Assembly (NCBI GenBank): GCA_947172705.1
Contig: CAMWCA010000001.1
Span: forward strand, 1-64,000
DNA: 64,000 bases
Direction of reading: 5' to 3'
DNA from: an uncultured Lachnospiraceae bacterium
Lineage (GTDB): Bacteria > Bacillota > Clostridia > Lachnospirales > Lachnospiraceae
Each line of letters begins with the position of its first letter. Position 1 is the first letter of the stretch. The position numbers and the translations under genes are program-made. The notes under the pieces are model-generated. The model had not been told where the DNA came from. It saw only the letters and a program-made list of their open reading frames with translations, and did no database searches. Below are positions 2,938-36,120 of the stretch, one piece after another.

Positions 2938-3432
2938 ATGGAGGGGAAGATGGAACGTATTAACCAAATCCTGGCATCCGACCTATATGGAGGATATCTG
3001 AAAAAAAACAATAAGGCAGAGGCGGGACGACGCTTCTGCCGTCATAATATGGGGCATTTTCTGGATGTGGCGCGGATCGCATGGATACTGAATCAGGAAG
3101 AGGGCTATGGGCAGGAGAAGGAGCTGGTCTATGCCGCAGCTCTTTTGCACGATATTGGAAGATGGATGCAGTATGAGCAGGGGGTACCCCATGAGCAGGC
3201 AAGCGCCGCCCTGGCGCCGGAGATATTGAGATCCTGTGGTTTTGCCCGGGAAGAGGAAGAGACGGTTATAAAGGCAATTGGAAATCATAGAAACGCCGAC
3301 ATAAAGGAAGAGAAATCCTTATCAGGGCTTTTGTACCGCGCCGACAAATACAGCCGTCCCTGCTTTGCCTGTGAGATGAAAGAGGCATGTGATTGGAAAA
3401 CGGGTAAAAAGAATTTACAGCTGTTTTTATAG
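2938..3432 (+). CDS. HD-domain phosphohydrolase in folate operon
   Basis: CRHNMGHFLDVARIAWIL and AALLHDIGRWMQ HD motifs; sits between folE and folP. Confidence 0.85.
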   Translation: MEGKMERINQILASDLYGGYLKKNNKAEAGRRFCRHNMGHFLDVARIAWILNQEEGYGQEKELVYAAALLHDIGRWMQYEQGVPHEQASAALAPEILRSCGFAREEEETVIKAIGNHRNADIKEEKSLSGLLYRADKYSRPCFACEMKEACDWKTGKKNLQLFL

Positions 3433-29682: not shown

Positions 29683-31356
29683 ATGAACCTATCGCAGGGA
29701 TACCCGATGGGTGCCATCATGCGATTGGAGTACGGCAATGAAGAGATCAAGTTTAAATATCGTCCAATAGAGGGCGTAAAAAATGTCACTGAAAAGCCGG
29801 CTTACCTTGTGCTGGATGGTCAACAGCGCCTTACATCTATGTATCGCACGACGTATTCAAAGGATCCGGTTGAGACAAAGACGGACAAGGGTAAAGGCAT
29901 TAAACGATTTTATTATCTGGATATCAAGAAATGCATGGATGACAATGAAGATCGTTATGATGCTATATTGCCGGTGCCGGAGGATAGGCGGATTAAAACA
30001 AATTTTGGGCGTGAGATTGAACTGGATTTGTCTACAAAGGAATTTGAGTATAAACATGAGATGTTTCCCATCAATATAATTTTCGATAGTAGCGCACGTG
30101 AAGATTGGGCGGACGGTTATAAAGAGTATCATAAATATGACAAGGTATTCATGGAACGATACAAGTCATTTCGGACGAATATAATCGAGACAATAACAAA
30201 CTACAAATTACCGGTGATTACGTTGGGAAGAGAGACCCCGAGAGAAGCAGTCTGCAAGGTATTTGAGAACGTCAATACCGGAGGTGTTGCACTAACTGTA
30301 TTCGAACTTGTTACGGCGACATTTGCAACATATGAATTCGATCTCAGGGCGGATTGGGAAATTTGTAAAGGAATCATCAGAGGGATTCACGAATCGCTGA
30401 ATACGGATGTTATGCACGGAGTGGATAAAACGGCATTCCTCACGACGATAACGCTCTATACAACTTATTTTTCCGATACTATGACAACCTGTAAAAAGAA
30501 GGATGTTCTGGCTCTGAATTTTGAGTCATATAAAGCAAATAAGCCGGCGGTGCTTGAAGGATACAAGATGGTCAGAAAATTTCTGTTCAGCCAGTATGTA
30601 TTTCGCATGAGAGATCTGCCGTATACAACACAGCTGATTCCATTAGTAGCAATCTGCGCTGTCATTGGCAAAAGTACGTTTAATCTGCCACAGACACAGA
30701 AGATTCTTGCACGGTGGTTCTGGTGTGGAATCATGGGCGAAATGTATGGTGGAGCGAATGAAACGAGGTATGCAAATGATATTGAAGATGTTGTTGCTGA
30801 GATACAGGGCAGGGAAAGTCTAAACAGAACGGTCAACGGAGCGTACTTTTCCGCATCAAGACTGATTTCACTTCAGACAAGAAACAGTGCTGCTTATAAA
30901 GGTATTATGGCTTTGGCTTACAGGGAGAGTTGCTGTGACTTTATGAAGGGCACAACGATGGATATTGTTAAGAGCATGGATGAATCTCCGGATATTCATC
31001 ATATCTTTCCGGAGGCTTACTGCATCAAACAGGGTTATCTGAAGAGTAAGTGGAATTCTATTGTCAATAAGACGCCGCTCCTGCCGGAATCCAATCGGCA
31101 GATCGGAGGTGAGGCTCCAAGTAAGTATAGCCAGAAAATTATGAAGGCAGCTCAAATTGATGAAGCTCAGCTGAGAATGAGAGTGGAATCACATCTTGTA
31201 AATTACGATGCATTTATCCAAGATGATTTTGATACCTACTTTATCGATCGGGCAAAGGCAATTATGAAGGTGATTGAATATGCGATGGAGAAGACGATTT
31301 CAGACAAAGGTGCGGAACAGACAATCAATAATTATGGAGTGAGTCTGGAAGACTGA
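29683..31356 (+). pseudogene. DUF262/HNH protein (GmrSD-type), N-terminally truncated
   Basis: GYPMGAIMRLEYG..YLVLDGQQRLTSMY and FENVNTGGVALTVFELV (DUF262), DIHHIFPEAYC (HNH); the usual N-terminal ~50 aa with the QR-x-W motif are absent and the ORF begins 23 nt after the rlmD stop. Confidence 0.65.
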
Positions 31357-31370
31357 TGAAAGGTTGTGTG

Positions 31371-32303
31371 TCACTTTTTGTACCGTGTAATTTTAACCCA
31401 ATTTTTAGGGAAGCCCATTTCTTTCAATAACTGCTCTTCTGTGAGATGAGGACATTTTCTGAGGACATTTTTTATTAATAGAGTCATACTTTTGCAGAAT
31501 ATACTGAATTCGCCATCAGAAATCAGATAGTGAAGGGCAATTACAACAGCGAACAGATCTTTTTTGCCATTCTGGTACAAACCTTTTTGGCAGGGAATTT
31601 CAAGTTTGCTATGTAACAGGGTATCTGGAATCATGTCTGTGGTTCGGAAGTCAAATAAGCGTTCTCCATGGGCACAAACATTCCGGCATTTGGCAATTAC
31701 AGTGATAAACTGGTGTAGTTGCTTTTCTGTATATTGTGGGTATGCCTTGCTGACTTTTACCTGAACATCGTTTGGCATATACTGATAAAATGCAGAGGTT
31801 TGTCCCATTGTCATTGCATTGGTTGCTACCCATAACGGAACATTATGATATTTTTTTGCGTGGTGGGTAATGTAACGATAGTGACTTGGCATTGCAATTG
31901 TTTTACTTAAGGAATCGATCAATCTTTTTACTTGTTTTGAATGGTGGATATAATCAAAATTTTTTGGATCTAAATATGCGTTCTGTGATTCTCCGTATTT
32001 TTCTGTGTAGTAATATGAAATCATAGATTTTAAGTGGCGTTCCGTCTGTAAAATGTATTTTAGGAAGATACTGCGGAGCTGTTCGTCAAAATGATAAAAT
32101 GTAACGATTTCATCAAATGTAACGCCATATTTATATTTCTTTGATGCTGGATGTAAAAATAATCCTTTATACCCACCAATCAAAGAATAGTAGCTGATTT
32201 CTTCCAATATTTTTCGTGCAAAGTCGACATCAGGGATGGTCAAGCCTTTATCGACGTGCAGTTTATTTAGTTGTTGTTCGTAAGTCATAAATTTCTGAGC
32301 CAT
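31371..32303 (-). CDS. Abi_2 family (AbiD/AbiF-type) abortive infection HEPN protein
   Basis: N-term TYEQQLNKLHVDKGLTIPDVDFARKILEEISYYSLIGGYKGLF typical of Abi_2; RNVCAHGERL is an RX4H HEPN motif. Confidence 0.88.
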   Translation of the reverse strand: MAQKFMTYEQQLNKLHVDKGLTIPDVDFARKILEEISYYSLIGGYKGLFLHPASKKYKYGVTFDEIVTFYHFDEQLRSIFLKYILQTERHLKSMISYYYTEKYGESQNAYLDPKNFDYIHHSKQVKRLIDSLSKTIAMPSHYRYITHHAKKYHNVPLWVATNAMTMGQTSAFYQYMPNDVQVKVSKAYPQYTEKQLHQFITVIAKCRNVCAHGERLFDFRTTDMIPDTLLHSKLEIPCQKGLYQNGKKDLFAVVIALHYLISDGEFSIFCKSMTLLIKNVLRKCPHLTEEQLLKEMGFPKNWVKITRYKK

Positions 32304-32332
32304 CAGATAACCTCGTTTTCATTTGTATGGAT

Positions 32333-32398
32333 AAAAAAGGAGCCCACGCATGAGCTCCTTCGGCTGTGGGCCCCTCGAGCATCCACAGCACAACCACT
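32333..32398 (-). ncRNA. structured ncRNA upstream of Abi_2 gene (candidate RNA antitoxin)
   Basis: Minus strand: GTTAGTGGTTGTGCTGTGGATGCTCGAGGGGCCCACAGCCGAAGGAGCTCATGCGTGGGCTCCTTTTTT; hairpins GCUGUGG/CCACAGC and GGAGCUCA-UGCG-UGGGCUCC-U6; dedicated promoter. Confidence 0.7.
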
Positions 32399-32404
32399 AA
32401 CGAT

Positions 32405-32433
32405 AATATACCTTAAGCTATCAAAGATGTCAA
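32405..32433 (-). promoter_or_regulatory. sigma70-type promoter of the Abi-associated ncRNA
   Basis: Minus strand TTGACA (32433-32428) - 17 nt - TATATT (32410-32405). Confidence 0.85.
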
Positions 32434-34795: not shown

Positions 34796-34823
34796 TGCAT
34801 TAAAATGGATGGAGGTCAGGAGA

Positions 34824-35516
34824 ATGGATAAACTGATTACCGTATATCATGGTTCTGAAAAAATTGTGGAACAGCCGGCTTTTGGCGAAGGAAAAAAGAA
34901 TAATGACTTTGGTCTTGGTTTCTATTGCACTGTAAATGAGGAACTTGCAAAGGAATGGGCAGTATCTTCCCAGCGTGATGGATTTTCTAATCGTTATACG
35001 CTGAATACTGAGTACCTGAACATTTTGAATTTAAACTGCCCTGATTATACAATCTTAAACTGGATTGCCGTTTTGGTGGAACACCGTCTGTTTTCCATCA
35101 AATCGCCTGTGGCAAGACGGGCAAAAAGGTACTTGATTGATAATTTCAGCATCAATGTGAATGCCTTTGATTTGATTATAGGCTATCGTGCGGACGATTC
35201 CTATTTTGATTATGCGGAATCATTCCTTAACAATGGTATTACGGTAGAGCAGCTTGCGCAGGCTATGCGGCTTGGAAAACTGGGGGAACAGATTGTTATC
35301 AAATCGAAGGCTGCCTTTTCCAATTTAAAGTACGAGGGATTCGATATTGCAGAGAAAGACAAGTATTACGTTCTGCGCAAAGCCAGAGATGATGAAGCGA
35401 ATCAGCATTACCTTCAAATACTTGAAGAAGAAAAGGATGGATTGTATATTCAGGATATTATGAGAGGAGACATGAAAAACGATGATCCACGCATACCAGG
35501 AAATATATCTGAGTAA
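34824..35516 (+). CDS. DUF3990-domain putative toxin (ADP-ribosyltransferase-like)
   Basis: VYHGSEKIVEQPAFGEGKKNNDFGLGFYCT..AKEWA hallmark of DUF3990; start 34824 after GGAGG. Confidence 0.82.
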   Translation: MDKLITVYHGSEKIVEQPAFGEGKKNNDFGLGFYCTVNEELAKEWAVSSQRDGFSNRYTLNTEYLNILNLNCPDYTILNWIAVLVEHRLFSIKSPVARRAKRYLIDNFSINVNAFDLIIGYRADDSYFDYAESFLNNGITVEQLAQAMRLGKLGEQIVIKSKAAFSNLKYEGFDIAEKDKYYVLRKARDDEANQHYLQILEEEKDGLYIQDIMRGDMKNDDPRIPGNISE

Positions 35517-36120
35517 GGCGCAGTCGGTGCTTGGAGATGCCTTTGATTATGCTGTTAACACCTGCAGAATTGACGGGAGCGATTTTGTGAAGCTGTTTAT
35601 TGCCAGTTCTGTAAGCAAACGAATGGAAAATGGCGAGCCCGCCTGCCTTACAGGGAAAAGCGGAATTGAGATTGTCAGGGGAATTGTTTTGGAAACAAAA
35701 GGACAGGAAATACAAACAGAACCTCGGGAGCATTTTGGGCGTTCAGGGGAATACTGGATTGGATGGGCTGTGGCTTATTATCAATGGTATTCAGGCAGAA
35801 AGTACGGCGACATTTTCAGGGTGGTTTCCTTTGAGGATTTGCAGAAAATGTATTTTACTCTCCATGAGGCGGATATAACTAAATTTGCTGACATTATGGA
35901 TGCACGAATGAAGGAATTTTTTTCTGAAACCAATTTAAAGCGTATCCGCACAGTTTATGGTCTTACCCAGTCAGAGCTTGCAAAACGTTCCGGAGTCAGC
36001 CTTCGTTCCATCCAGATGTATGAACAGCGCAACAAAAACATTAATAAGGCAAGCGCAGACACAATATATCGCCTTGCCAAAGCGCTTGGCTGCACAATGG
36101 AGGATCTGATTGAAAGGTGA
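35482..36120 (+). CDS. XRE-family HTH protein, putative antitoxin partner of DUF3990
   Basis: C-terminal HTH RTVYGLTQSELAKRSGVSLRSIQMYEQRNKNINKASADTIYRLAKALGCTMEDLIE; overlaps the DUF3990 stop. Confidence 0.82.
   Translation: MIHAYQEIYLSKAQSVLGDAFDYAVNTCRIDGSDFVKLFIASSVSKRMENGEPACLTGKSGIEIVRGIVLETKGQEIQTEPREHFGRSGEYWIGWAVAYYQWYSGRKYGDIFRVVSFEDLQKMYFTLHEADITKFADIMDARMKEFFSETNLKRIRTVYGLTQSELAKRSGVSLRSIQMYEQRNKNINKASADTIYRLAKALGCTMEDLIER

Follow-up and report, generated by a model that had tools for sequence, protein, structure and literature searches.

A two-hairpin RNA upstream of an Abi_2/HEPN gene in Lachnospiraceae as a probable RNA antitoxin

We analysed a 64,000-nucleotide (nt) stretch of DNA from an uncultured Lachnospiraceae bacterium (assembly GCA_947172705.1, contig CAMWCA010000001.1, positions 1 to 64,000; hereafter the window), in which the minus strand carries a short structured RNA with its own promoter and terminator, followed directly by an intact gene for an Abi_2 protein with a HEPN ribonuclease site. 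The locus very probably encodes a toxin-antitoxin pair that resembles type III systems and belongs with AbiF/AbiD, the RNA being the antitoxin and the HEPN protein the toxin. This had been proposed in an initial annotation made from the letters of the DNA, and it is supported by the conservation and covariation of the RNA, its co-segregation with one protein clade, a one-way loss in which the toxin goes first, and the fold that the protein shares with PbAbiF.

The small RNA and its conservation upstream of one Abi_2 clade

The locus consists of the following elements.

32428..32433, minus strand: -35 element TTGACA, read directly and found in a promoter scan; conserved as TTTGACA at the same distance in 39 relatives
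32405..32410, minus strand: -10 element TATATT, after a 17-nt spacer from the -35 element; read directly and found in the promoter scan
32332..32398, minus strand: predicted small RNA with 5' AGUGG at the predicted start; matches covariance model R1 at 81.6 bits
32363..32389, minus strand: helix 1 hairpin GCUGUGG/CCACAGC with a 3x1 internal loop, inner stem CUC/GGG and GAG triloop
32333..32360, minus strand: second hairpin with a conserved UGCG tetraloop, plus U6, forming an intrinsic terminator; compensatory changes at 6 of 8 pairs
32311..32314, minus strand: Shine-Dalgarno-like GAGG, read directly
31371..32303, minus strand: Abi_2/AbiD-like HEPN protein of 310 amino acids with R207-N-V-C-A-H212 (PF07751, PADLOC, 8VZ6)

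The promoter matches the consensus at 11 of 12 positions and was the top-scoring site of the region, and the scan found no promoter-like site between terminator and gene; both the TTGACA-N17-TATATT promoter and the absence of a second one had been described in the initial annotation. Transcription is predicted to start with the A at 32398. The arms of helix 1 are GCTGTGG (32389-32383) and CCACAGC (32369-32363), and the terminator hairpin is AAGGAGCTCA-TGCG-TGGGCTCCTT at 32360-32337, or GGAGCUCA-UGCG-UGGGCUCC followed by six U when written as RNA, with the U6 at 32338-32333. The exact 66-nt transcript folded into the two hairpins, with a mean pair probability of 0.99 for helix 1. A simple terminator scan did not list the window terminator, probably because its stem extends into the T run. 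The ATG at 32303 comes 29 nt after the small RNA and is preceded by the GAGG at 32314-32311. Several parts of the first description hold up on direct reading, namely the 7-bp hairpin, the terminator hairpin with its UGCG loop and U6, and the Shine-Dalgarno sequence and ATG about 30 nt past the terminator. The predicted RNA likewise stands, with its length corrected from ~66 to ~67 nt, while the inner 3-bp stem of helix 1 with its GNG triloop (CTC GAG GGG) had been overlooked.

We took homologues of the protein from species genomes and compared the stretches 5' of their start codons. The small RNA adjoined all 41 relatives of one Abi_2 clade, and the window type is common to relatives as distant as ~37% protein identity. 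The type III order of promoter, RNA, terminator and toxin, which had been put forward for the window and can be read there directly, recurs across the clade, and in 39 relatives the -35 element, the -10 element and the AGTG start keep a constant spacing (letter conservation 79-100% for TTGAC, 56-92% for the -10 and 92-95% for AGTG). In an alignment of 35 RNAs helix 1 was paired in every one, with double changes at six of its seven pairs. The covariation score was 0.564, versus 0.282 for shuffles, none of 500 shuffles reached it, and a slid-partner control gave at most 0.240. The letters of these RNAs that are invariant, or nearly so, fall within four places: the AGUG at the 5' end, the A that follows helix 1, the C..GNG..G of the inner loop, and the hairpin 2 loop. 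A covariance search upstream of related abi genes had been suggested as a check on the proposal, and there the RNA was both conserved and covarying.

It could be argued that there is no functional RNA here, and that an ordinary gene has a promoter and a terminator which look alike among relatives through recent common descent. The closest relatives (L001-L003) are indeed nearly identical to the window at this locus, but compensatory pairing extends down to ~37% protein identity, the stretch from terminator to start codon is not conserved among relatives, and the covariation test already contradicts such an explanation, which we consider barely credible.

On a tree of 100 Abi_2 proteins, with RNA types judged by eye (most window-type assignments agreeing with R1 matches), the window-type RNA formed one side of one branch, with 41 rows, one change versus 32 in shuffles, and a support of 91 in the Shimodaira-Hasegawa-like approximate likelihood ratio test (SH-aLRT). 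RNAs resembling Rfam family RF03085, the known conserved abiF RNA, lay on the opposite side of a fully supported split. Placing all nine RNA types on the tree needed 11 changes, versus 48.7 in shuffles.

In other Abi_2 clades the gene is preceded by small hairpin RNAs of different kinds (GUUGCC..GGGGACCA among them), for example at L083, L084, L091, L094, L098 and L102; L073 and L093; and L085 and L090. One clade (L088, L095, L101, L103) seems to be without any such RNA. A-like RNAs from a Streptococcus phage (L183) and from a Leptotrichia plasmid (L184) seem related by eye; R1 gave no match to them and they were not counted.

The HEPN protein and comparison with AbiF, AbiD1 and ToxIN

The window protein matched PF07751 with an E-value of 6.6e-45 (154 bits; cut-off 25.6) and the AbiD model of PADLOC with an E-value of 4.6e-65. 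The RNVCAH sequence, recognised from the outset as a HEPN RX4H motif, occupies residues 207-212; R207, N208, A211 and H212 are invariant among 51 aligned homologues, and R-N-x-C-A-H is present in all 41 clade relatives. By sequence the single solved relative is 8VZ6, that is, PbAbiF with its noncoding RNA (ncRNA), with E-values of 6e-13 for the single sequence and 1e-54 for the family profile. The structure predicted for the window protein (predicted local distance difference test score 95.8) retrieved the same entry as its sole significant Foldseek match in the PDB (E-value 1.1e-10, template modelling score 0.74-0.77). There was no ToxN-like fold among the significant PDB matches; the protein is HEPN.

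PDB entry 8VZ6 is reportedly the PbAbiF/AbiFr pair of Prevotellaceae described by Zilberzwige-Tal and colleagues in 2025. It has the same protein fold and R-x4-H site as the window pair, and a small cognate ncRNA encoded in cis. It differs in that AbiF RNAs of Bacteroidota are RF03085-like, whereas the window RNA is of a different, two-hairpin type whose terminator is separate, and the window protein belongs to another clade. AbiFr restrains AbiF, from which Cas13 descends (review PMC12737573). In Clostridioides difficile, RCd22 binds AbiF-Cd and neutralises it in cis and in trans, and the locus in phi027/phiC2 shares with ours a SigA-type promoter, ncRNA, terminator, readthrough and Abi_2 HEPN protein (PMC12373285). 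RCd22, however, has two RF03085 motifs and the window RNA none, and the two proteins are 24% identical.

AbiD1 of the Lactococcus plasmid pIL105 is likewise an Abi_2 protein with a short terminated upstream transcript, seen on Northern blots, and expression by readthrough; in the absence of chloramphenicol no abiD1 transcript is visible other than a 50-nt RNA that stops at the terminator ahead of the gene (PMC2661086). This RNA, unlike ours, looks by eye like an abiF-like hairpin that doubles as the terminator, and AbiD1 is just 26% identical to the window protein, over part of it. The 50-nt transcript (L185 7296-7345) reads RF03085-like, and AbiD1 may thus be partnered by an RNA antitoxin that has gone unrecognised. 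Type III ToxIN systems share the promoter, RNA antitoxin, terminator and ribonuclease toxin, and some relatives (L045) have tandem RNA copies as they do. The window toxin, in contrast, is HEPN and not of the ToxN fold, and there is usually one RNA unit, with no pseudoknot shown.

Even at E<=10, RF03085 (gathering threshold 37 bits) matched nothing in the window or in its own genome, while phiC2, the positive control, scored 37.6 bits. The internal loop also differs: in the window RNA its 5' strand has 3 nt and its 3' strand 1 nt, against a short 5' and a long 3' strand in RF03085. The window RNA is thus not the known conserved abiF RNA, and the link to AbiF ncRNAs and Cas13 drawn in the initial annotation divides accordingly: Cas13 ancestry stands for the wider AbiF family and falls for this RNA. 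The locus itself is unlike CRISPR-Cas13, in which one protein carries two HEPN sites and is accompanied by a repeat-spacer array; here the protein has 310 amino acids and an RNVCAH site, and the RNA is one unit without such an array. The sole Rfam match under curated and permissive thresholds was Atu_C8, at 22.5 bits against a cut-off of 50, which we read as a chance likeness of two GC hairpins. The principle is already known from two toxin-antitoxin pairs of type III-like design, AbiF/AbiFr and that of RCd22 in C. difficile; the window RNA is a new RNA variant, with no Rfam match, a different fold, a separate terminator and its own protein clade. The original 2025 paper in Cell may already contain this RNA type.

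Toxin loss, extra RNA copies and the role of the RNA

We ran R1 on 299 genomes of the family and compared the results with a protein search of the same genomes. The 72 matches with E below 1e-8 fall into 70 loci; strong matches occur in about one fifth of the sampled genomes of the family and almost nowhere else in the phylum. An intact Abi_2 gene accompanies the RNA at 31 loci and a broken or remnant one at 16, the flanks that were read hold none at 22, and one locus lies at a contig end. The RNA is therefore without an intact toxin at 38 of the 70 loci, and none of the 31 intact toxins of the clade in this sample is without an adjacent RNA. One-way loss of this kind is expected of an antitoxin, since the toxin is dispensable and the RNA is not as long as the toxin is present. 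Helix 1 remained paired in all 32 orphan RNAs examined, with compensatory changes, which is supportive but, as R1 had a part in finding and aligning these RNAs, not independent. We rejected the idea that orphans are artefacts of assembly gaps: few are near a contig end and the others have sequenced flanks, G093 being the sole orphan that could not be judged owing to a contig end.

The genome of the window itself holds a second RNA copy (L135 2280-2346, G000:C28), which at 86.6 bits outscores the window copy and is followed by just the first codons of an Abi_2 gene, an N-terminal remnant. At L165 the intact gene (protein L056) is followed by the RNA, which has a promoter of its own, at L181 and G171 (L038/L164) RNA copies flank the gene on both sides, and at L045 two RNA units stand in tandem; many orphan RNAs have their own promoter. 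Three loci in a phage slot (L144 1615-1681, L195 2557-2623, L196 5102-5168) have kept promoter and RNA with the Abi gene replaced, at L144 by what resembles, by eye, a RelBE-type pair. In two genera (L139 3000-3066, L151 3067-3133) an orphan RNA lies directly 5' of a gene pair whose second member resembles, again by eye, a Zeta-type ATPase toxin.

These copies bear on whether the hairpins are a cis-acting leader alone, that is, a riboswitch-like attenuator of readthrough with no separate RNA function. Consistent with a leader, the terminator is immediately 5' of the gene with no second promoter, AbiD1 is expressed by readthrough of a comparable terminator (PMC2661086), and the readthrough leader adopts an alternative fold: the 97-nt stretch that includes it had a different minimum-energy fold from the exact transcript. 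However, structured copies survive at the 22 loci whose flanks, as far as read, have no trace of Abi_2, some with their own promoter, and the RNA behind the gene at L165, the flanking and tandem copies and the own-promoter orphans are not explained by a leader that only attenuates. Furthermore, the copies in phage tRNA arrays described below have no U run after the second hairpin and so no terminator, and a pure terminator would need no hairpin 1 with an invariant loop. The loss pattern and the downstream RNA copy favour a trans-acting antitoxin, and we regard a leader-only function as improbable.

Still less likely, in our view, is a role of the RNA in activating the HEPN nuclease or in sensing, as a guide-like or trigger-sensing partner rather than an inhibitor. 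AbiF is related to Cas13, and in Cas13e, an early form, the CRISPR RNA both restrains and guides (PMC12737573). Yet in this clade the toxin is lost with the RNA kept and never the reverse, as for an inhibitor, there is no variable guide segment, the unpaired parts being among the most conserved, and RCd22 and AbiFr are inhibitors.

If the RNA is an antitoxin, transcription from the promoter would mostly stop at the RNA's own terminator and yield a short RNA of two hairpins, and the folded RNA would be bound by a homodimer of the HEPN ribonuclease with the active site R207/H212 blocked. Minor readthrough would supply the toxin mRNA, hence the RNA would always be in excess. Phage infection or another stress might disturb the RNA supply or the complex and free the ribonuclease, which would cut cellular RNA and arrest growth. 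Toxicity, direct binding and neutralisation are suggested for the window pair by PbAbiF and C. difficile AbiF. Its labelling as a defence module and a role against phages are suggested by AbiF/AbiD relatives, and this role and its trigger are inferred more weakly than toxicity, binding and neutralisation.

Some points weigh against an RNA antitoxin. The locus is known from its sequence, with expression, toxicity and binding predicted; the covariance-model search for orphans favours copies that have kept their pairing; the window has a single RNA unit whereas classical ToxI is a repeat array; and the window RNA is unlike both RF03085 and the RNA type found 5' of Bacteroidota AbiF genes.

RNA copies in phages and neighbouring genes

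Intact RNA-Abi modules occur in six viral contigs (L175, L177, L178, L176, L191 and L194). Ten further viral records, which may be fragments, have the RNA and no Abi_2 gene in the record. Five of these ten, from two phage lineages, have the 67-nt RNA between genes for tRNA-Met and tRNA-Arg, in arrays of up to eight tRNAs.

L197 2474-2540; L199 5228-5294; L200 4092-4158; L192 202-268; L201 5598-5664: window-type RNA in tRNA arrays

One array record is 170 kb long and has genes for PhoH, an exonuclease and a tRNA-His guanylyltransferase beside the array; in the other lineage a terminase gene is near it. Nucleotide identity between the two lineages is 91% for the RNA, whose differences preserve helix pairs, while it is 62-77% for five of seven compared tRNAs, 94 and 99% for the other two, and 67% for a flanking exonuclease gene. 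A blastn search of the RNA against GenBank phages returned MT835668 alone, and the tRNA-array RNA had no match there. The array of L197 also contains 72 nt (2946-3017), flanked by tRNA-Asp and tRNA-Ala, that are not a window-type RNA and in which ARAGORN called no tRNA.

Large phages may carry the antitoxin RNA in their tRNA arrays as a decoy that would keep a host HEPN toxin silent during infection, a reading from sequence that we hold as quite possible, if somewhat short of probable. PhiTE pseudo-ToxI (PMC3475682) and the Racr RNA anti-CRISPRs (PMC10651486) are phage-borne mimics of the RNA partner of a defence system, and by analogy a phage copy of the antitoxin is the simplest reading here; the window-type copies differ in being predicted, in lying in tRNA arrays and in that they would target an Abi_2 system. 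As a rival, the tRNA-array RNA may serve the phage in some other way. These copies are the part that would be likely to surprise specialists.

Close to the Abi locus in the window, a GmrSD_N/HEC-05-like gene (29683-31356) is convergent with the Abi gene; its match begins at profile position 38, so its N-terminus may be missing. At 34809-36120 a DUF3990 protein is followed by an XRE-type helix-turn-helix protein, which together match the PADLOC candidate system PDC-M42 and are a possible toxin-antitoxin pair.

Altogether, these data extend the AbiF/AbiD toxin-antitoxin pairs that are thought to be the source of Cas13 by an RNA family that covaries very clearly and has no entry in Rfam 15, and they show that distinct Abi_2 clades possess their own RNA types. 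In many cases the RNA has outlasted the toxin, and in phages it occurs alone, which makes two questions directly testable: how the recognition of different RNAs by HEPN toxins arose, and whether phages disarm such toxins by means of RNA copies in tRNA arrays. The decoy reading, if true, would amount to an RNA-based counter-defence delivered like an additional tRNA.
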